Below, piece by piece: positions 308-7,591 of a stretch of 7,591 bases of DNA. Under the pieces are notes generated by a model that worked only from the letters and a program-made list of their open reading frames with translations, was not told the DNA's origin and ran no database searches. Position numbers and translations under genes: made by a program. Positions within the stretch are counted from its first letter, which is position 1; each line of letters opens with the position of its first letter. The DNA is taken from positions 1-7,591 of the forward strand of contig JARYMR010000071.1 of the NCBI GenBank assembly GCA_029907045.1. The letters are read 5' to 3'. The DNA is from Candidatus Bathyarchaeota archaeon (GTDB lineage Archaea; Thermoproteota; Bathyarchaeia; Bathyarchaeales; UBA233).

Positions 308-1315
308 ATGGCGCAAATTTCACTAGAAACCATTTGGCGAATGGGCGAAAAAGAACTTGTTAGCCTATTAAATTCTAATTTGTTCTCTTCAAAAACTGGG
401 AAAATCCATTTTTACGCTCCAAGCTTCATGTATTATAAAACAAGCTATTACCGTTCTTCGCCTATGGCTTTTCCAACAATATCTATCACTGGAAGGGGTT
501 GTGCCCTTAGGTGTAAGCATTGTGGGGGAAAAGTTTTAGAGACAATGCATTCAGCAACGACGCCCGAAAAACTTTTTGAGTTATGTTCTAGGTTTAAGAA
601 AGAAGGTGCCTTGGGCTGTCTTATTAGTGGTGGATGTTTGCCCAATGGTTCTGTTCCCCTTGAAAATTTTGTTGAGGTTATTGAAGGGGTTAAGAGGGAT
701 TTGGGTTTAACAATTTTTGTCCATACTGGAATAATCAATTTCTCTATGGCTAAGAGGCTTAAGAAGGCGGGGGTGGACGCTGCATTAATAGACATTATTG
801 GTTCAGAGGAAACAATAAAAGAAATTTACAACCTAAACATAACCATTAAGGATTATGAAAATTCTTTGAAAGCCTTAAGCGAGGCGGGCATAGCTTTTGT
901 GCCCCATGTGATTGTTGGGCTTCATTATGGAAAACTAAAAGGCGAACTTCAAGCTTTGAAGCTCATATCTAAATACAAGCCTTCGGCTGTTGTCATTATT
1001 GCGTTTATGCCCATCCATGGGACTAAGATGGAGAAGATTGAGCCTCCAAAACCAATGGACATAGCAAGAGTCATAGTGGCTGCAAGGCGGATTTTCCCAG
1101 AAACGCCTGTAGTTCTTGGATGTATGCGCCCCAAGGGCAAGCATCGCACAAAAACAGATGTTTTAGCTATTAAAGCAGGCGTGGATGCTATTGCTTTTCC
1201 AACGGAAGAAGCTATAAAATTTGCTGAAAGCAAAGGAAACGAAATTTTCTTCTCATCTTTCTGCTGTTCTCAGATTTACGTAGATTTTATGGATTTAGAT
1301 TCTTCTAAGAAATGA
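308..1315 (+). CDS. Radical SAM protein, biotin-synthase-like; candidate lipoyl synthase subunit (LipS2-like)
   Basis: This is a 335-aa protein. The radical SAM cluster motif CxxxCxxC is at C65, C69 and C72 (CALRCKHC), followed by a GGK glycine motif that would contact S-adenosylmethionine. The rest reads as a TIM-barrel enzyme: SGGC at 107-110, HTG at 139-141, DIIGS at 162-166, HVIVGLHYG at 200-208, MPIHGT at 234-239, and GCMRPKGKHR at 271-280. Further cysteines at 93, 104, 110, 272 and the pair 319-320 near the C-terminus could bind a second Fe-S cluster. The sequence resembles the archaeal 'biotin synthase homolog' group; from memory, one such protein is LipS2, which works with LipS1 to insert sulfur into octanoyl-protein. 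That assignment is inference, and no LipS1, lipoate ligase or GcvH gene is in the window. The ATG at 308 is the first start after an in-frame stop at 296-298, but no strong ribosome binding site precedes it. A later ATG at 341 is possible but less likely. Confidence 0.85.
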   Translation: MAQISLETIWRMGEKELVSLLNSNLFSSKTGKIHFYAPSFMYYKTSYYRSSPMAFPTISITGRGCALRCKHCGGKVLETMHSATTPEKLFELCSRFKKEGALGCLISGGCLPNGSVPLENFVEVIEGVKRDLGLTIFVHTGIINFSMAKRLKKAGVDAALIDIIGSEETIKEIYNLNITIKDYENSLKALSEAGIAFVPHVIVGLHYGKLKGELQALKLISKYKPSAVVIIAFMPIHGTKMEKIEPPKPMDIARVIVAARRIFPETPVVLGCMRPKGKHRTKTDVLAIKAGVDAIAFPTEEAIKFAESKGNEIFFSSFCCSQIYVDFMDLDSSKK

Positions 1316-1531
1316 ACGTTTCAAAGCGCTCATAATTTCATTTTTTAGTTTTACATAATTAGCGCTTAATCTTTTTGCATCTTTTTTCGCCATGCCTTGG
1401 CGGATAAGCTGTTTTTCAAAGGCTTTTCTTGCCTTTCGTACATTCCAACCAAAAGTAAGCCATAAAACAAAAAGGGTAATTGAAAGGCGAGTGAAATGTA
1501 GGGCTATGCTAAGAATGCTGCTAATCCTCAT
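1295..1531 (-). CDS. Small membrane-anchored protein of unknown function (78 aa)
   Basis: I do not recognise a named family. One hydrophobic helix spans about residues 6-28 (ILSIALHFTRLSITLFVLWL) and is followed by a very basic region rich in K and R to the C-terminus, so the tail probably lies in the cytoplasm. Residues 37-60 match residues 54-77 of the 131-aa protein encoded just upstream without gaps: AF, K, L, G, A and a closing NYV are identical, and several other positions are similar. The ATG at 1531 directly follows an in-frame TAG two codons earlier, so it is the first possible start. A purine-rich AAGGGGCGAG lies about 10 nt before it. The gap to the upstream gene is 19 nt, which suggests co-transcription. 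The 3' end overlaps the convergent radical SAM gene by 21 bp. The shared motif and tight spacing argue that the ORF is real. Confidence 0.65.
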   Translation of the reverse strand: MRISSILSIALHFTRLSITLFVLWLTFGWNVRKARKAFEKQLIRQGMAKKDAKRLSANYVKLKNEIMSALKRSFLRRI

Positions 1532-1550
1532 GTACTAAAACTCGCCCCTT

Positions 1551-1946
1551 TTAGTCTTCGTTCTCTTCCTCTTCTTCTTTGCGTTTTTCAGCAAGTTTTT
1601 CTTTTATTTTTCTCGAAATCTCTTCGCCTATTTCCTTGCCTTCTCCCGCGGCGACCACAATCTTCTTTTCTTTTCCTGCATGTTTAAGAATGTCTCCGAG
1701 GCTTGTGAATACTGAAACGTAATTCTCTGTCATTTTTACAGCGGTTTCTTCTGGTATACCTGCTTCTTTTAACTCCTTGTAGAAGGCTGCTGCTGCCTTT
1801 CCCATGTCTCTTCCCGCTTCTTCGGAAAATACGCTTGCAATTATTCCCTTTATTAGTGCTGGCACCTCTCTGGAAAGTGCTCCAAAGACTTCTTTAATCT
1901 CTTCTACATCTTCCTCCCATTCTTTCTTTTTCTTTTCTTCGCTCAT
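1551..1946 (-). CDS. Charged helical protein of unknown function (131 aa)
   Basis: I do not recognise a named family. The protein is probably soluble and mostly helical. Its N-terminus is highly charged (residues 1-20, many E and K), a less polar amphipathic stretch covers about 25-57 (VPALIKGIIASVF and AAAAFYKEL), and the acidic-basic tail after 103 ends in a run of glutamates. Residues 54-77 carry the motif shared with the 78-aa neighbour (AF, then K, L, G and A at fixed spacing, ending NYV). The start is well supported: a GGAGGTG ribosome binding site at 1954-1960 lies 7 nt before the ATG. The gene is followed after 19 nt by the 78-aa membrane protein. A role together with that protein, for example as soluble partner to a membrane anchor, is inference from the shared motif and spacing only. 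Confidence 0.75.
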   Translation of the reverse strand: MSEEKKKKEWEEDVEEIKEVFGALSREVPALIKGIIASVFSEEAGRDMGKAAAAFYKELKEAGIPEETAVKMTENYVSVFTSLGDILKHAGKEKKIVVAAGEGKEIGEEISRKIKEKLAEKRKEEEEENED

Positions 1947-1988
1947 TTAGATACACCTCCATTGAGATGGATATCTTGGGCATTTCAG

Positions 1989-1997
1989 TTATTTATT
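1989..1997 (-). promoter_or_regulatory. Possible TATA box for the 131-aa gene
   Basis: On the minus strand the sequence reads AATAAATAA, which resembles an archaeal TATA box. It is about 45 nt before the ATG at 1946, so a transcript beginning some 25 nt downstream would include the GGAGGTG ribosome binding site in a leader of about 20 nt. The 77-nt gap after the regulator gene allows a promoter here, but read-through from upstream is equally possible. Confidence 0.3.
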
Positions 1998-2023
1998 GTG
2001 GTAAAAAGTGGTCAAATAGGTGT

Positions 2024-2455
2024 TCATTCAACCAATTCGTAAATATGCTCAAACCCTTTAACTTTTCGAACAATCCCTTCCTTTTCCAATCGCCTAACCC
2101 TTTCTCTGATAATTCTTCTAGATGCTTTTCCCCGCATTGTTCGAACTTGGCGTGTTATTGCAGAAATATTCAATTTTTCATGGAGGGCTAAAGCTTGCAC
2201 TATGCAGCGTGAAATATCATCTTTGGCAACCCACTCTTTCTTTAAGTGTTTTTCAGCAACTTTTAAGCGTGCGACAACCTTTAATGGTTCGCCGTATAAG
2301 CCCATTCCGAAGCGTGTTAGGCGCAGGTATGGCGCTAATGCTGCGTATTCTGGGTTATTCATTATTAGGGTTTCGAGGGTTTCAAGCCTTTTTATTATTA
2401 AGTCCAGTTTTTTGCTTAACTCTTCAATAGTGGAGTTGCTGCCTTCTTTTTCCAT
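2024..2455 (-). CDS. Coiled-coil and winged-helix DNA-binding protein (143 aa)
   Basis: Residues 9-32 form a probable coiled coil with leucine and isoleucine heptads ([20 protein letters not shown]), suited to dimerisation. A linker with [13 protein letters not shown] follows at 34-46. Residues 81-141 form a probable winged helix: helices around [12 protein letters not shown] and [11 protein letters not shown], a basic recognition helix ([17 protein letters not shown], about 113-129), and a short wing ending FEHIYELVE. The role is inferred to be transcriptional regulation; the ligand and targets are unknown. It lies between DUF763 (72 nt upstream) and the two small genes (77 nt downstream), all on the minus strand, so it may regulate either. 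The ATG at 2455 has no clear ribosome binding site, and a short or absent leader is possible. Confidence 0.75.
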
Positions 2456-2527
2456 GTTTCTTCGTTTCTTTATAATTGCGTAGTGATAAAAGAGTTTGTG
2501 GTTTTTGAGGTTAGTGTAATTAAGCTA

Positions 2528-3652
2528 TTATTTTGGGATAAACTCGCGCAATCTCTGCAAAGATTGTATTCGGTCTTTGTTGCCTATTTTTGCTTGTTCT
2601 ATCGCTTGTTTTAACAGCCTTATTGATTCGTCCATGGCTTTTCTGTCCACGGGATGGGGGACACCGTCTTTTCCGCCGTAGGCGAAGGAGTATTTTACTG
2701 GGTCTTTCCAGCATGGTTTTTCTCCGTAAATGAGTTCGGCTATTAGGGCTAAGCCTCGGACTGTGGCTGGTCCTACGCCTTTGAAACCTAAAAGTTCTTC
2801 GTAATTGCGTGGTTGGAACTCGTAGACTTGTTGGAGGGCTTTCCAGTTTATGTTTGTTGGCATGGATAAAACTTCTATGGGGTATTCTTTCCATGCGGTT
2901 TCTGTGGTTTTTGGCATCCATTCTTGAAGGGATTTTTGGTGGGCTGGTCTCACGGACATGATTAAGCGCATGATTTTGTTTGGTTTTTCTTTTGCTATGT
3001 CTACTGAGGCTTTTCTGCAGCCTTCGCTTTCTTTCGCCGTCATGTCTAAGGCGATATTTCGTTTTATGTCGCCAACTATGGCGTTGTGGGGTTCCACCAC
3101 GAAGTTTTGGATTTTTTCTGAAAGCCAATGATAGCGCCTAGCGGTGCGGTCTTGGGGGCACATGCCCTGTTGGATTACCGCCCATTCGCCTTTTTCGGTT
3201 AAAAAGAACGAGTGATGGTAAAGTTGGTAGCCTGCTTGGATGGCAGTATTATCCACCTTTGCGCTCATCTTACTTGCATAGCGTAGATTTTCTGTTTTGC
3301 TTGTGGAAAATCCGAATTTTTCGCTTACCCGCTCAATTTCTAGAGGGGTTTGTCTTGAAATTTTGCCCTTTCCGCCGCAGATAGCTATGCCATGCTCTTC
3401 TGGGATGATGGCTTGTTTTAGAACTCCAGTTACGACTGTTGTTACGCCTGAAGAGTGCCAGTCATAGCCTAAAACGCAGCCTAAAGCCTGAAACCAGAAG
3501 GGGTCTGATAGGCGCTTTAGAAATTCGCCATTGCCATACTCGTCAACAATTATTGTGACTATTTCTTTTGCTAATTTTTGCATGCGAACAACTAACCATT
3601 TTGGAGCTTTACCATAATGAAGTGGAAGTTTAGCGATACCTGTTCTTTGCAT
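2528..3652 (-). CDS. DUF763 domain protein with helix-hairpin-helix motif
   Basis: This 374-aa protein matches my memory of the DUF763 family, which occurs in archaea and some bacteria and whose biochemical role is not known to me. Recognisable segments are the N-terminal MQRTGIAKLPLHYGKAPKWL, a GYQLYHHSFF segment at 141-150, and SFAYGGKDGVPHPVDRKAMD at 322-341. Residues 286-309 (ELLGFKGVGPATVRGLALIA and onward) look like a helix-hairpin-helix, a motif that binds DNA backbone in repair enzymes and nucleases. A nucleic-acid role is therefore plausible but is inference. I chose the ATG at 3652 because family members begin at MxRTG. Upstream in-frame TTG codons at 3673 and 3670 would add 7 or 6 residues that do not look conserved. 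There is no transmembrane segment or signal peptide. The gene is preceded by a 189-nt gap, so it probably has its own promoter. Confidence 0.85.
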   Translation of the reverse strand: MQRTGIAKLPLHYGKAPKWLVVRMQKLAKEIVTIIVDEYGNGEFLKRLSDPFWFQALGCVLGYDWHSSGVTTVVTGVLKQAIIPEEHGIAICGGKGKISRQTPLEIERVSEKFGFSTSKTENLRYASKMSAKVDNTAIQAGYQLYHHSFFLTEKGEWAVIQQGMCPQDRTARRYHWLSEKIQNFVVEPHNAIVGDIKRNIALDMTAKESEGCRKASVDIAKEKPNKIMRLIMSVRPAHQKSLQEWMPKTTETAWKEYPIEVLSMPTNINWKALQQVYEFQPRNYEELLGFKGVGPATVRGLALIAELIYGEKPCWKDPVKYSFAYGGKDGVPHPVDRKAMDESIRLLKQAIEQAKIGNKDRIQSLQRLREFIPK

Positions 3653-3680
3653 AAGCTCTGTCAAACCCAACAATATGCTA

Positions 3681-3700
3681 TGCTTTAAGCCTTATTTTTA
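3681..3700 (-). promoter_or_regulatory. Possible promoter of the DUF763 gene
   Basis: On the minus strand this stretch reads TAAAAATAAGGCTTAAAGCA, with two A/T-rich TATA-like cores (AAAAATAA and CTTAAAGC). Either would place a transcript start shortly before the ATG at 3652, giving a short leader. This fits the absence of a strong ribosome binding site there. The support is composition and spacing only. Confidence 0.3.
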
Positions 3701-3702
3701 CC

Positions 3703-3747
3703 TTGCCAAACACCAATTTTGTGATATTTCCTCTATAGTTTTGGCAA
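3703..3747. repeat. 8-bp perfect inverted repeat upstream of DUF763
   Basis: TTGCCAAA at 3703-3710 and TTTGGCAA at 3740-3747 are exact reverse complements separated by 29 bp. The pair lies immediately upstream of the TATA-like stretch of the DUF763 gene. It may be a divided operator or a chance match in A/T-rich sequence. Confidence 0.4.
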
Positions 3748-3820
3748 TGTTGGAAAATGGAGTTGTTTTCAACCTTATTTTCTCTACCCCCTCCCCCTCT
3801 AGAGTTTTCGCCCATCTTCA

Positions 3821-3835
3821 AAACCTATAAGGTTT
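3821..3835 (-). other. Short hairpin just after the coaD stop codon
   Basis: AAACCT at 3821-3826 and AGGTTT at 3830-3835 form a perfect 6-bp stem with a 3-nt loop, starting 6 nt after the stop codon of the last gene in the CoA operon. On the minus strand it is followed by a T (TTTT) run and then by a purine-rich stretch with two runs of five G. It may mark the 3' end of the operon transcript. Archaeal termination usually needs only T-runs, so a role for the hairpin is uncertain. Confidence 0.35.
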
Positions 3836-3841
3836 GGTCTA

Positions 3842-4339
3842 TTAATTATGCCAATTTTTTATTATGTGTCCTTCTCTGTCTATTTCTCCCCTTCGAATCC
3901 TTGTCGTCGAGATTGGCGCATGATTCTCCGATGGAACCATGTCAATAACAACAATTTCCAAAGGCTTCAAACCCCTTCTGGCACGTTCAGCATTAATTCT
4001 ATTAGCCATTGGTTCTGTTTCTCTGCTAACAACCAAAGCTTCAACACAACCCTCAGACAAAGTCACGCCAAAAGGGTCATTTAAAGGCATAATCTCAGCC
4101 CTTTCCAAAAAACCCATTTTACGCAGAAAATCCTTAAGCTCCTTAAGCCTTTCATTGTATGAGGCTGTTATATGCGGTTTTGTTAAGCTTTCTACAAGCC
4201 TATCAGAGCATAAGCCTATTAAAACGTGTTCGCCAACTTCAAAAGCCTTCATTAATAAGGCTCTGTGCCCCTTATGAAGCTCGTCAAAAGTGCCGCCAAC
4301 AGCAACAGTTTTAAACCTTTTTCTCTCCATTACTTTCAT
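3842..4339 (-). CDS. coaD: Phosphopantetheine adenylyltransferase, archaeal type
   Basis: The enzyme transfers AMP from ATP to 4'-phosphopantetheine to give dephospho-CoA, the penultimate step of coenzyme A synthesis, in the cytoplasm. The 165-aa sequence shows the nucleotidyltransferase Rossmann fold: VAVGGTFDELHKGHRALL at 12-29, with the HxGH nucleotide motif HKGH at 22-25, and ISTTRIRRGEID at 143-154, the second ATP motif. The length is normal for the archaeal form. Its first codon overlaps the stop of the pantoate kinase gene as TGATG, which points to translational coupling. I chose the ATG at 4339; a GTG at 4342 (4-nt overlap) or the ATG at 4330, immediately before ERKRFKTVAVGGTF, are alternatives that leave the domain intact. 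It is the last gene of the three-gene CoA operon. Confidence 0.93.
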   Translation of the reverse strand: MKVMERKRFKTVAVGGTFDELHKGHRALLMKAFEVGEHVLIGLCSDRLVESLTKPHITASYNERLKELKDFLRKMGFLERAEIMPLNDPFGVTLSEGCVEALVVSRETEPMANRINAERARRGLKPLEIVVIDMVPSENHAPISTTRIRRGEIDREGHIIKNWHN

Positions 4340-5274
4340 CACTCTATTAGCCTAGCGCCTTGAATGTCAATCGGAGCCACGAGAACATTGTTTTCGGGTA
4401 AAACCTGCTTAAAAGCTTGAGCCACATTTTCCGCATTTTCCAATGTTGTTAAGGCGTGAACTGCCTCACCAACCATGTTTTGCGCCGCACCTATGGCACC
4501 TGCTTTCTCAGCAAGCTTCACCAAAATGCGAACCCGCTCAGTTGCAAAAACAGTTTTTTGGGCAAAATCCCAGCAACAAGCCAAAAAATTTTCAAGAGAA
4601 GGCTTCGAAAGAATTTTTTCTAAGGTTTTCTTTCCCCACTTGTTAACGGCTAAACGCTTTTCCTGTGAAGATAAAACCTCCCTTGTTAGTATTGGTCCAA
4701 AAACTCCCGCAACAATCACGTAATCTGTTGTTATTGGTATGCGGTCAATTATGGCGATTCCAGGTGCGCCTGGTTCAACTGTTATTATGCATCCTCCAAG
4801 CATCAAGGGTCCAACAGTGCCCAAACCAGTTTTGCACCTAACCTCTGCAACATGCGCAATTCTACCAAGCTGATTATAAGTCAAATTTAAGCCCAAAGCC
4901 TTTGAAAGCGCCAAAGCAGCAGTTAAGGCTCCAGCAGCACTTGAACCAAAACCAGCACCAATTGGCACGTCAACCCTATGTTTAATCACCACTTTATATG
5001 ACATGTCAACTTTTTTTAACAACATTTCCGCTACAGCCCTAGTGGTTTCAGCTTCTGGGGCGATTTTTCCATTTATAAAAACATTAATGCTGTTCGTATC
5101 GTTTTCTTCTACAGAAACTTCTGTTGTTACTCCCTTTTGAATTCCGAAGCCTCCGCCTCTCGCCCCAACCTTTTCCAAGTCTGAAATTGGACTACCGTCC
5201 GGCAATGTGTCGCATATTTCAAAGAAGCTTGAAATTCCAGCTGGACTGAAAGCCTTTAAGGATTTTTTTGCCAA
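4339..5274 (-). CDS. Pantoate kinase, archaeal GHMP family
   Basis: Archaea phosphorylate pantoate first and then condense it with beta-alanine, using pantoate kinase and phosphopantothenate synthetase in place of the bacterial pantothenate route. This 311-aa protein shows GHMP kinase features: an N-terminal AFSPAGISSFFEI segment (8-20), the glycine-rich ATP loop PIGAGFGSSAAGALTAA (104-120), KTGLGTVG (148-155), and a C-terminal GAIGAAQNMVGEAV segment (259-272). The length is normal for the family. The start is TTG at 5274: the conserved region begins within eight residues and no ATG lies nearby. An AGGGA about 9 nt upstream may serve as ribosome binding site. The gene starts 1 nt after the transporter stop codon and its TGA overlaps the coaD ATG, so the three genes are almost certainly one transcript. 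The partner phosphopantothenate synthetase is not in the window. Confidence 0.92.
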   Translation of the reverse strand: MAKKSLKAFSPAGISSFFEICDTLPDGSPISDLEKVGARGGGFGIQKGVTTEVSVEENDTNSINVFINGKIAPEAETTRAVAEMLLKKVDMSYKVVIKHRVDVPIGAGFGSSAAGALTAALALSKALGLNLTYNQLGRIAHVAEVRCKTGLGTVGPLMLGGCIITVEPGAPGIAIIDRIPITTDYVIVAGVFGPILTREVLSSQEKRLAVNKWGKKTLEKILSKPSLENFLACCWDFAQKTVFATERVRILVKLAEKAGAIGAAQNMVGEAVHALTTLENAENVAQAFKQVLPENNVLVAPIDIQGARLIE

Positions 5275-5275
5275 A

Positions 5276-6052
5276 TTATTTTTCCCTAGCTTCAGTTTTC
5301 TGCGAAGTTTTCAGTGATGGATATGCCTTATAACAAGCCTTTATGATTGGTGGGCCTAGTAGGAGGATGAATGGGATTTCTGTGGCGAATGTCCAGACGA
5401 ATATTATGGGTATAAACGAGGATGGTATAGGGTTTTTGAAATAGCCTTGTGGAGAGAAGAATATTTGGCTGTAAGCCCAAACCACAACGGCTATTATTGC
5501 GCTTCCAACTCCCAATCCTGTGACTGAACCAACTCCATAATTTTTCCATTCAGGCCACAACTTGGCAATCACGAGGGTGATGAGTAAACTGGCAACAACA
5601 GTCAGAATAAACATAATGATAATTTCGAAGGAGGAAAAGGTGCCAGCGAAGTAGGCAACAGATTCTGATGGTAACAGAACTGTTGGCAATAAGAGACCAG
5701 CGGCAATGATTACGCTTCCCATAATTACACTTGAACTTATCTTTTTCCAATCAAGTGTAGAACGGGAAATGTAGCCTAAAATGAAGAATCCGGCGAAATT
5801 GGCTGTAACGCCAGCTGACAAACTAAGCAATGCGTCTCCATGGAACATCATGTCTCTGATAAAAATGCCGATTGCCGCGCCTATGCCTCCAGTTAAGGGT
5901 CCAAATAAAACAGCAAAAACTGCAGGTATAACGGCTGCTGGCCAAAATGCAACTCCGCCAACTGTTATGCCTAAATCAGTTAACCGTCCAACTACTGCAT
6001 ATAAAGCTGCACAAACCCCAATCATTGCAACATCAGAGGCTTTCATTTTCAT
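5276..6052 (-). CDS. ECF-type transporter substrate-binding (S) component, possibly for a CoA precursor
   Basis: This is a 258-aa integral membrane protein with about seven hydrophobic segments (roughly 8-25, 33-50, 55-66, 78-96, 107-127, 141-165, 175-198, 212-238, some of which may pair or re-enter). ECF S components bind a vitamin-like substrate and dock onto a shared EcfT/EcfA energising module, which is absent here and would be encoded elsewhere. Family-like features are the AxxxA helix motif near the N-terminus (A15-A19), a GPLTGGIGAAIGIFIRDMMF stretch at 51-70, and the glycine-rich membrane segments. At 258 aa it is longer than most S components (about 200 aa). It is first in the operon with pantoate kinase and phosphopantetheine adenylyltransferase, so pantoate or another CoA precursor is a plausible substrate; that is inference. 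The ATG at 6052 is preceded by GGGTGA at a spacing of about 4 nt; a second ATG at 6046 is possible. Confidence 0.8.
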   Translation of the reverse strand: MKMKASDVAMIGVCAALYAVVGRLTDLGITVGGVAFWPAAVIPAVFAVLFGPLTGGIGAAIGIFIRDMMFHGDALLSLSAGVTANFAGFFILGYISRSTLDWKKISSSVIMGSVIIAAGLLLPTVLLPSESVAYFAGTFSSFEIIIMFILTVVASLLITLVIAKLWPEWKNYGVGSVTGLGVGSAIIAVVVWAYSQIFFSPQGYFKNPIPSSFIPIIFVWTFATEIPFILLLGPPIIKACYKAYPSLKTSQKTEAREK

Positions 6053-6131: not shown

Positions 6132-6188
6132 TTTGGCTATTAGGGGATTATGCGTTTCTCATTTGCTAATTGTTTTACAAGTCTACAG

Positions 6189-6214
6189 TTATGTGTAGCT
6201 TTGTTCTACGCACA
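6189..6214 (+). repeat. Copy 1 of a 26-bp dyad element upstream of a pilin gene
   Basis: This 26-bp element recurs at 6915-6940 with a single difference (C or T at its eleventh position). It contains arms TGTGTAG (6192-6198) and CTACGCA (6206-6212) around a 7-nt centre; they pair at six of seven positions with one T-G. The flanking CCATCATAT (6217-6225) is also nearly repeated as CCATCTTAT after the second copy, with 2 nt less spacing. It lies just upstream of the TATA-like box of the 188-aa pilin gene, where an archaeal activator would bind. Confidence 0.7.
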
Positions 6215-6221
6215 AACCATC

Positions 6222-6256
6222 ATATTTAAACCCGAACTGATTCTGCTCCACGGAGA
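6222..6256 (+). promoter_or_regulatory. Core promoter and ribosome binding site of the 188-aa pilin gene
   Basis: ATATTTAAAC at 6222-6231 is a good archaeal TATA-like box. A start about 25 nt downstream falls near 6250, giving a leader of only about 14 nt that still contains GGAGA at 6252-6256, 7 nt before the ATG at 6264. This arrangement supports the ATG at 6264 over an in-frame ATG at 6150, which would read through the repeat and the promoter. Confidence 0.55.
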
Positions 6257-6263
6257 GAAAAAA

Positions 6264-6830
6264 ATGAACTTGTTAAAGAATAAGAAAGCATTAAGCACAG
6301 TGGTGACAACGCTCATAATCCTAGTGGTTTCAGTGCTATTGGCAACTGTTGTAACTTTCTATGCCATAAACGTAACAACAACACGTGTACAAGAGGAATC
6401 ACTGTTCCTAACAAAACAACATGTATGGTACAACACGACTGGAGGCTGGGCTGTAGGAGCAATAATCATAATCAATACTGGCGGTAAAGACGTTGTTATA
6501 GACAAGGTGACTGTTAGAGGACAAGAATGCCCATGGACAAACGTTTACTACTGGAGAACTAACACGGTCACGATTTCAGCCGATCTTAATGTTACACATC
6601 TACCGCCAAGTGAAATGAGCTCCGATGATTGGGCTTTAGTGCTTCCTAGCGCGGATGAATTCAAGGCAGCAGACTCTGATTTGACATTGAAGTCAGGTTA
6701 TACAATGGTCTTATACATCGAAAACCCCGATAGCATCGCCTTGAACGATGTGGGCATACCCGTTGGCATAACCATCTTCACATCAAACGCCCAATACTAC
6801 AAAGAAACAAACGTTGAGGCTGCTCAATAG
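6264..6830 (+). CDS. Type IV pilin or archaellin-like surface protein (188 aa)
   Basis: The N-terminus MNLLKNKKALSTVVTTLIIL has the class III signal layout: a short basic leader, a probable prepilin peptidase cut between A9 and L10, then a long hydrophobic helix (10-36) that would form the filament core. The rest is a beta-rich extracellular domain with a hydrophobic strand before a glycine turn (AVGAIIIINTGGKDVVIDKV, 63-82). Sequons N-x-S/T at N36, N57 and N109 suggest N-glycosylation. The sequence after the cut fits archaeal adhesion pilins (KKALSxVVTTLI) better than archaellins, but the distinction is not firm. No pilus ATPase, platform protein or peptidase is in the window. The start at 6264 is supported by GGAGA 7 nt upstream and by the short leader. 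It is divergent from the CoA operon and followed by a T-rich terminator. Confidence 0.85.
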   Translation: MNLLKNKKALSTVVTTLIILVVSVLLATVVTFYAINVTTTRVQEESLFLTKQHVWYNTTGGWAVGAIIIINTGGKDVVIDKVTVRGQECPWTNVYYWRTNTVTISADLNVTHLPPSEMSSDDWALVLPSADEFKAADSDLTLKSGYTMVLYIENPDSIALNDVGIPVGITIFTSNAQYYKETNVEAAQ

Positions 6831-6840
6831 CAGCATAAAC

Positions 6841-6869
6841 CCTCCTTTTTCTCTTTTCCCCTTGTTTTT
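6841..6869 (+). terminator. T-run terminator after the 188-aa pilin gene
   Basis: Ten nt after the stop codon begins a pyrimidine-rich stretch with three T-runs (6846-6850, 6854-6857, 6865-6869). Archaeal RNA polymerase commonly stops at such runs without a hairpin. It implies that the next pilin-like gene needs its own promoter, in line with the second copy of the 26-bp element. Confidence 0.55.
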
Positions 6870-6914
6870 ATGTTCCTATTCTGCATCAATTTTTAAGGTA
6901 TGGATTTTGTATAC

Positions 6915-6940
6915 TTATGTGTAGTTTTGTTCTACGCACA
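6915..6940 (+). repeat. Copy 2 of the 26-bp dyad element, upstream of the second pilin-like gene
   Basis: It is identical to the copy at 6189-6214 at 25 of 26 positions, with the same imperfect arms TGTGTAG and CTACGCA. It is followed by CCATCTTAT (6941-6949) and by A/T-rich sequence including ACTATAAAA (6953-6961), which could be the TATA box. Only 20 nt separate it from the first in-frame ATG of the next gene, against 49 nt for copy 1. Confidence 0.7.
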
Positions 6941-6960
6941 CCATCTTATCTTACTATAAA

Positions 6961-7591
6961 ATGGAAAGCTTCTTTTTGAAATGCAAGAGAGGAGACTGCG
7001 AACCATTGCGTCATGAAAGTTTCAAGAAGAGGTTAACAAAGTTCTTGTTTTCAAGAAGGGCGTTAACCATACCAGTCACATACCTAATCCTCTTTGCCTC
7101 TCTTATGGCGATAATTTCTGTAACCTATAGCCTAGCTGTAGCAAAAATCAGCGCTCGAGGCGCCTACTTTAGGGCTTCTGTGGCTAAACAGAATATGCAA
7201 GCTTTAGATGATGCAGTTCGCTCTGTGGCTTGGAGTTTCGGCGCTTCGCAAATTGTTTACATGGAAGATTGTGGAGGCACTTTTAAAATAGAGCCAACAG
7301 CTAAAACGCTCCTAATTAACCTCACAGACGAACAAGCCTTTTCGGAAATAGTGTTCAACAGTTCTGTTGGAAAGGTTTCGATTGAACTTGAGCCTGCTGA
7401 AATTTATTATGATGGCACATTCCTCAGAGGCGATAATAGACCAATAACAAACCAAAGCTCTTCCACCATGTCTCAGCTTTATGTGGCTTTAGGCGATGGG
7501 ACAAAAAATTTGGTTCTTTGTTATCGTCCCTTGGCAACAGTAGCCGTTATTGGCTCGGTTGATGGAAAACCATTAAACCTCATTCGCATAA
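6961..7591 (+). CDS. Pilin-like surface protein, 5' part (runs off right window edge)
   Basis: The frame is open from the ATG at 6961 to the right edge, giving at least 210 residues; the C-terminus is missing. A basic stretch KKRLTKFLFSRR is followed by ALTIPVTYLILFASLMAIIS (34-53), a class III-like signal with a probable cut between A34 and L35 and then a membrane helix to about residue 62. The layout matches that of the 188-aa pilin (KKALSTVVTTLI against RRALTIPVTYLI). The rest appears extracellular, with sequons at N120, N133 and N164 and cysteines at 104 and 187. It may be a minor pilin or a membrane-anchored surface protein. The start is uncertain: the ATG at 6961 has no ribosome binding site and abuts a TATA-like sequence. 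TTG at 7006 (GGAG at 6991-6994) and TTG at 7045 (GAGGT at 7029-7033) are alternatives and give shorter leaders. Confidence 0.8.
   Translation, partial: MESFFLKCKRGDCEPLRHESFKKRLTKFLFSRRALTIPVTYLILFASLMAIISVTYSLAVAKISARGAYFRASVAKQNMQALDDAVRSVAWSFGASQIVYMEDCGGTFKIEPTAKTLLINLTDEQAFSEIVFNSSVGKVSIELEPAEIYYDGTFLRGDNRPITNQSSSTMSQLYVALGDGTKNLVLCYRPLATVAVIGSVDGKPLNLIRI

Follow-up and report, generated by a model that had tools for sequence, protein, structure and literature searches.

A conserved control element before type IV pilus-like genes of Bathyarchaeia, with a TrmB-family protein as candidate regulator

Background

Why do two unlike pilin-like genes of one archaeon share nearly the same 26 bases upstream? 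Bathyarchaeia are uncultured, and we know of hardly any work on gene regulation in this class. The window analysed here, that is, the whole stretch of 7,591 nt from a Candidatus Bathyarchaeota archaeon, carries one such element at 6189-6214 (TTATGTGTAGCTTTGTTCTACGCACA) and another at 6915-6940 (TTATGTGTAGTTTTGTTCTACGCACA). A sequence-only reading of this DNA had taken the pair for the site of a dimeric regulator that might define a surface-appendage regulon. We compared the window with related loci and genomes to ask what the element is and what may bind it.

Results

The two elements agree at 25 of 26 bases, as originally counted, and each contains the dyad TGTGTAG-N7-CTACGCA, followed by a TATA-like AT-rich box just downstream and then by a pilin-like gene. 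The CCATC block recurs with the 2-nt shift already noticed, at 6217-6221, 2 bases past the first element, and at 6941-6945, abutting the second. On the forward strand, the regulatory element of pilin A spans 6189-6216 (dyad 6192-6212; CAAA completes the conserved ACGCACAAA) and is kept before pilin A orthologues, and its TATA-like box ATATTTAAA (6222-6230) stands at a conserved distance from the dyad. The gene B element (6915-6940, forward strand; dyad 6918-6938) is followed by the TATA-like box TTATCTTA at 6946-6953 of the same strand, 2 nt nearer the dyad than at A, and the B promoters of related loci (L086-L096), where readable, have the same arrangement. Scanning the window for the dyad with up to three mismatches located two places only, each on both strands (4 matches versus 0.33 expected; 0 of 200 shuffles reached 4). 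By inspection, TACATA, the box of EarA-type sites, is absent from both window elements and from their junctions to the TATA-like box. A reading as RNA elements was set aside, the dyads being 5' of the TATA-like boxes. Directly 5' of the first dyad, window positions 6170-6188 hold a second, partly palindromic stretch (~TTGTTGWAC...GTACAG), also present ahead of pilin A in several loci of the window's type (L086-L096).

Gene A (6264-6830, forward strand) encodes a pilin-like protein of 188 aa. A mechanical open reading frame (6150-6830) spans the first element, which we take as non-coding because the pilin alignment begins at ATG 6264. The view that both elements are non-coding and lie upstream of pilin-like genes stands, with a correction to gene B, whose start is probably TTG 7006 and not ATG 6961, since the latter overlaps the expected promoter and relatives align to TTG 7006. 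An RBS-like GAGAGGAG (6987-6994, forward strand; by eye) precedes this start, and gene B (7006-7591, forward strand) extends past the window end. Proteins A and B gave no BLASTP match to each other at E < 10, in agreement with the statement that the coding sequences are unalike. Family assignments were weak: protein A reached 19.7 bits against PF07790, the archaeal type IV pilin family (cut-off 25.2), and 23 bits against the NCBIfam UpsA model (cut-off 130), a B orthologue had no meaningful family match and none to PF07790, and PHROGs returned nothing for the two pilins tested.

The pilin reading is supported by the operon found in relatives, where gene B is the first gene ahead of the assembly genes. 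In the relative L086, outside the window, these include a T2SSE protein (PF00437, 120 bits) and a T2SSF protein (PF00482, 55.6 bits), as in type IV pilus-like assembly. Both A and B were present in 19 of the 20 fetched loci, the twentieth (L101) being the other site of genome G082. Most fetched loci keep one gene order, namely A, B, small protein, T2SSE ATPase, T2SSF platform and three more genes; in some, gene copies are absent or truncated at the end of the locus. Many genomes have a second pilin A copy (A'). The assembly ATPase resembles FlaI, and the platform is similar to BasF and UpsF, each with a score under the cut-off, so we call the locus type IV-pilus-like. In G004 the assembly ATPase (L086, 10391-11990) appears as two overlapping open reading frames in different frames, perhaps through a frameshift that is genomic or arose in assembly. 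To the left of the locus, window positions 308-6052 hold radical-SAM-like, nucleotidyltransferase-like, kinase-like and transporter-like genes (by eye) that are common to many loci of the window's type, and these shared flanking genes are the basis of the window's clade assignment.

Across 84,980 genomes, the exact 18-base pattern TGTGTAGNNTTNTTCTACGCA was found in 10 stretches (11 sites), all from Bathyarchaeota; ten sites precede A or B and the eleventh lies at a locus end. Searched with up to three mismatches, those 10 genomes yielded 17 sites with 0-1 mismatch; each genome has one or two of them, and every such site with a readable gene lies at the pilin locus. The same genomes held 2 sites with two mismatches and 23 with three, versus 17 for the reversed control pattern. 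The refined pattern TGTGTAGNNNTGTTCTACRCA with at most two mismatches occurred in 74 of 256 Bathyarchaeia genomes, partly by chance (~130 matches listed versus ~25 of the reversed control). Exact TGTGTAGNNNTGTTCTACRCA was present in 34 genomes, every one with pilin A, while 0-1 mismatch extended this to 43 genomes, among which G086, G153 and G191 had no pilin A among the matches listed (down to ~209 bits), a weak absence given that the genomes are drafts; G191 carries pilin B. Outside the class, 323 genomes of the phylum (G257-G579) contained no exact TGTGTAGNNNTGTTCTACRCA, and two of them (G310 and G370) contained it with one mismatch. The one-mismatch sites in G059 (contig C92) and G086 had no pilin gene in view. 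Several related sites were also seen: additional ones in G010 and G125 (TGTGTATTTTTGTTCTACGCG), one before another pilin-like gene in G082 and G083 (TGTGTAGTTTTGTTTTACACA; by eye), identical to a site in G154, and others before a gene resembling an assembly ATPase in G085 and G087 (by eye). The sites of G082, G083, G085 and G087 (L047, L048, L076 and L078) are each trailed by ACAATATT or a similar stretch.

The upstreams of 82 pilin A copies revealed that A' promoters keep the same geometry with differing inner bases, which gives the general form TGYGT-N11-ACRYACAAA-N5-WTA. A score of at least 13 out of 14 was reached by 64 of these 82 upstreams, versus 0.3% of shuffles and 8 of 344 upstreams of other open reading frames drawn from the 20 fetched loci and the window; extraction required an ATG start and overlooked copies with a different one, among them the leading pilin of G230, which was found by eye. 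The element is thus conserved before orthologous pilin genes of many Bathyarchaeia, as a regulon would require. All 8 high-scoring control upstreams belong to clusters 21, 24 and 25, within ~10 kb of a TrmB gene, beside a MoxR-like AAA protein (cluster 26; PF07728, PF08406) and a VWA-like protein just under cut-off (cluster 29). Clusters 21, 24 and 25 (L097-L105, L237-L242) are small families of unassigned function that carry the pilin-type promoter element. In loci of the window's type, the AAA is missing from the B promoters, which lie 2 nt nearer the TATA-like box.

Exact matches to the generalised promoter numbered 91, in 49 of the 256 Bathyarchaeia genomes, against 3 for the reversed pattern (G060, G061, G062). 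Enrichment before pilin genes, which the sequence-only reading had named as support for a regulon, was seen, with 82 pilin promoters among the 91 matches; six others precede cluster 21 or 24 genes, one is at the end of a contig with no gene after it and two are left over. By coordinates, 63 precede pilin A and another 13 lie just past pilin A, ahead of the gene that comes after it; in the six loci read (G065, G066, G067, G188, G195 and G198) this gene is B. The remaining 15 include three before B, one before A' and two ahead of pilin genes whose starts are truncated at contig ends (the G070 and G148 matches were assigned by eye).

The spacing between half-sites was 11 in 58 of the 75 promoters with a score of at least 11. 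In a set of 47 unique sites, a conserved TA stood at a fixed distance from the dyad, its columns not having been used in site choice, whereas the half-site columns are inflated because the sites were picked by half-site score. Mirror covariation of the half-sites was mixed, with pairs 6/16, 7/15 and 10/12 speaking for it and 3/19 against it, measured against shuffles that ignore relatedness, and the left half-site is often poor in deep lineages. In L099, the second pilin A gene (9983) is preceded by tandem dyads, TTGTAGTACTGTTCTACGTG and then TGTGTAGTGCTGTTCTACGCACAAA, for one pilin gene.

The best candidate for the regulator is a TrmB-family protein (cluster 18), proposed from sequence comparison. 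Its L099 copy has a TrmB-family DNA-binding domain (PF01978, 58.9 bits; cut-off 25.6), and the cluster profile matches the TrmBL2 structures 5bpd, 5box and 5bqt (E ~1e-7). The sugar-binding effector domain PF11495 had no match at E <= 0.001 in this copy, and the TrmBL1 and TrmBL2 NCBIfam equivalogs scored far under their cut-offs (30.4 of 650 bits and 27.8 of 530 bits, respectively). Taking presence as a match of at least 200 bits in a search with an alignment of six copies (matches listed down to ~102 bits), we found TrmB in 77 of 91 genomes with pilin A among the matches listed versus 12 of the 165 others (256 genomes; Fisher P = 1.8e-37, a statistic that ignores ancestry). It was likewise present in 30 of 34 genomes with the exact element versus 59 of 222 without; the four lacking a match (G001, G005, G008 and G150) are drafts.

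Of the 77 genomes, 40 have TrmB no more than 10 kb from a pilin A gene: 25 carry it immediately upstream and in the same orientation, with gaps of 125-770 nt, 14 carry it 6.9-9.3 kb away on the opposite strand, and one has it on the same strand at a distance of 7.2 kb. The remaining 37 have it farther off or on a different contig, and in the window's locus type (L086-L096) it was found within 15 kb of pilin A in 0 of 11 genomes. The recognition region reads LHRTETY in all 14 copies found (19 loci read, 5 without a copy). In 28 of 30 loci (27 unique), the promoter of the TrmB gene itself has another conserved box (consensus ~ATTCAtATTttgAaTTCAgAAGTATAAAATA), which differs from the element, and a TATA that looks strong, so the link between TrmB and the element is put forward as a hypothesis. 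The ATTCAtATTttgAaTTCAgAAGTATAAAATA-type box stands ~60-80 nt 5' of the TrmB gene (L106-L135) and is possibly an autoregulatory site.

Discussion

The 26-base element proves to be a genuine control site, strongly conserved before pilus-like genes of Bathyarchaeia. It is most likely, to judge from its dyad, the site of a dimeric regulator that switches these genes, as the sequence-only reading had suggested, and the regulator is perhaps of the TrmB family. The regulon is small and narrow; the earlier idea of a surface-appendage regulon holds in that pilin promoters share the element, but within these narrow limits, and the appendage may be a pilus or an archaellum.

We lean towards an explanation in which a regulator, most likely a TrmB-family dimer, binds the promoters of the type IV-pilus-like locus at this element. 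The dimer would sit on the dyad directly 5' of a BRE/TATA that looks weak by eye and help to recruit TFB and TBP, and in answer to some signal two transcripts, that of pilin A and that of pilin B with the assembly operon, would be switched together. The likeliest binder is the TrmB-family protein whose gene shows linkage to the pilin locus in numerous lineages; presumably the genome of the window has this gene too. Activation would fit because a dimer site directly 5' of a weak-looking core promoter is also the arrangement described, in the available texts, for TrmBL1, Tgr, EarA and Ptr2 (PMC4158304, PMC5512572). Weighing on the other side are the presence of TrmB in 59 of 222 genomes without the exact element, the often poor left half-site of deep lineages and the contrary covariation at 3/19. 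We see about an even chance that this TrmB lineage serves specifically as the pilus switch across much of the class, reading TGYGT-N11-ACRYACAAA before pilin promoters and, in some lineages, before small gene families near MoxR/VWA-like genes, maybe as part of the same surface response.

Rather unlikely, in our judgement, is that another regulator binds the dyad while TrmB acts on its own box or higher in a cascade and is merely linked to the locus. The different conserved box of the TrmB promoter speaks for this and was counted against TrmB, since with its strong TATA it would be the more obvious TrmB site, as do the four exact-element genomes without a TrmB match and the lack of linkage in the window's locus type; yet TrmB is linked in two different arrangements (25 directly upstream, 14 on the opposite strand at 6.9-9.3 kb), and gene families near it share the promoter element. 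A repressor operator, at which the dimer would cover the BRE and keep the pilin promoters off until a signal releases it, is improbable. The dyad does end a few bases from the TATA-like box, so a bound dimer could block TFB, and repressors at promoter regions are described (PMC5512572), but the TrmB-family and EarA cases with sites 5' of BRE/TATA are activators in the available texts (PMC4158304, PMC5512572) and the pilin core promoters look weak.

The better preservation of the right half than the left in deep lineages, for example at the first pilin of G230, would suit an alternative core promoter made of the right half (ACRYACAAA) and the TATA box and read by a variant TFB, the left half being secondary. 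Closer genomes, however, keep the left half almost equally, and the spacing of 11 recurs in 58 of 75 promoters, which makes this account improbable. The identity of 25 of 26 bases inside one window might also suggest a recent copy, such as a dispersed repeat, a recombination site or gene conversion, but there are one or two strong copies per genome, and A-type and B-type promoters retain their own flanks across related loci. We regard this origin as scarcely credible, whether by dispersed repeat, by recent duplication or by gene conversion, and rejected all three. The sequence-only reading had named a dispersed repeat as evidence against its regulon and had itself discounted recent gene duplication.

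In literature covered in part on archaeal pilin and archaellum promoters, TrmB regulators and Bathyarchaeia pili, we found no earlier description of the element, and the comparisons that follow draw on partial texts of the sources. TrmB-family proteins bound 5' of BRE/TATA are described as activators (PMC4158304). TrmBL1/Tgr, with the TGM motif, and Halobacterium TrmB resemble our candidate, which has PF01978, as dimeric HTH proteins that act on a dyad and activate from this position (PMC4158304). The known members mainly govern sugar metabolism, and their motifs, TATCAC-N5-GTGATA and TACT-N7-8-GAGTA (the latter read by Halobacterium TrmB), are unlike the element, although the N7-8 spacing is similar to that of its dyad (PMC4158304). 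EarA, the archaellum activator of Methanococcus and Pyrococcus, also has sites immediately 5' of the BRE of an appendage promoter and activates a weak promoter, but through repeated 6-bp TACATA boxes at the archaellum operon rather than a dyad (PMC5512572, PMC10665913). The gene for CsmR of Haloferax volcanii likewise adjoins appendage genes and its semi-palindromic motif lies near the TATA box, whereas this motif reads TATCA-N4-TGATA and the genes rise in the deletion strain (PMC13286277). The ups pilus promoter of Sulfolobus acidocaldarius is similar in having a conserved motif in an archaeal pilus operon promoter, but the motif is a hexanucleotide of the UV response (PMC5817253). The hvo_0169 adhesion mutant of H. 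volcanii concerns a TrmB-family gene that affects adhesion; the available description discusses a sugar link and contains no pilin promoter site (PMC5198076).

Together, these findings provide a regulatory site for surface pili of Bathyarchaeia that recurs across much of the class, and name a candidate regulator. The element is directly testable as a sequence and recognisable in metagenomes. If the proposed role of the candidate is true, TrmB-family control would extend to surface appendages.
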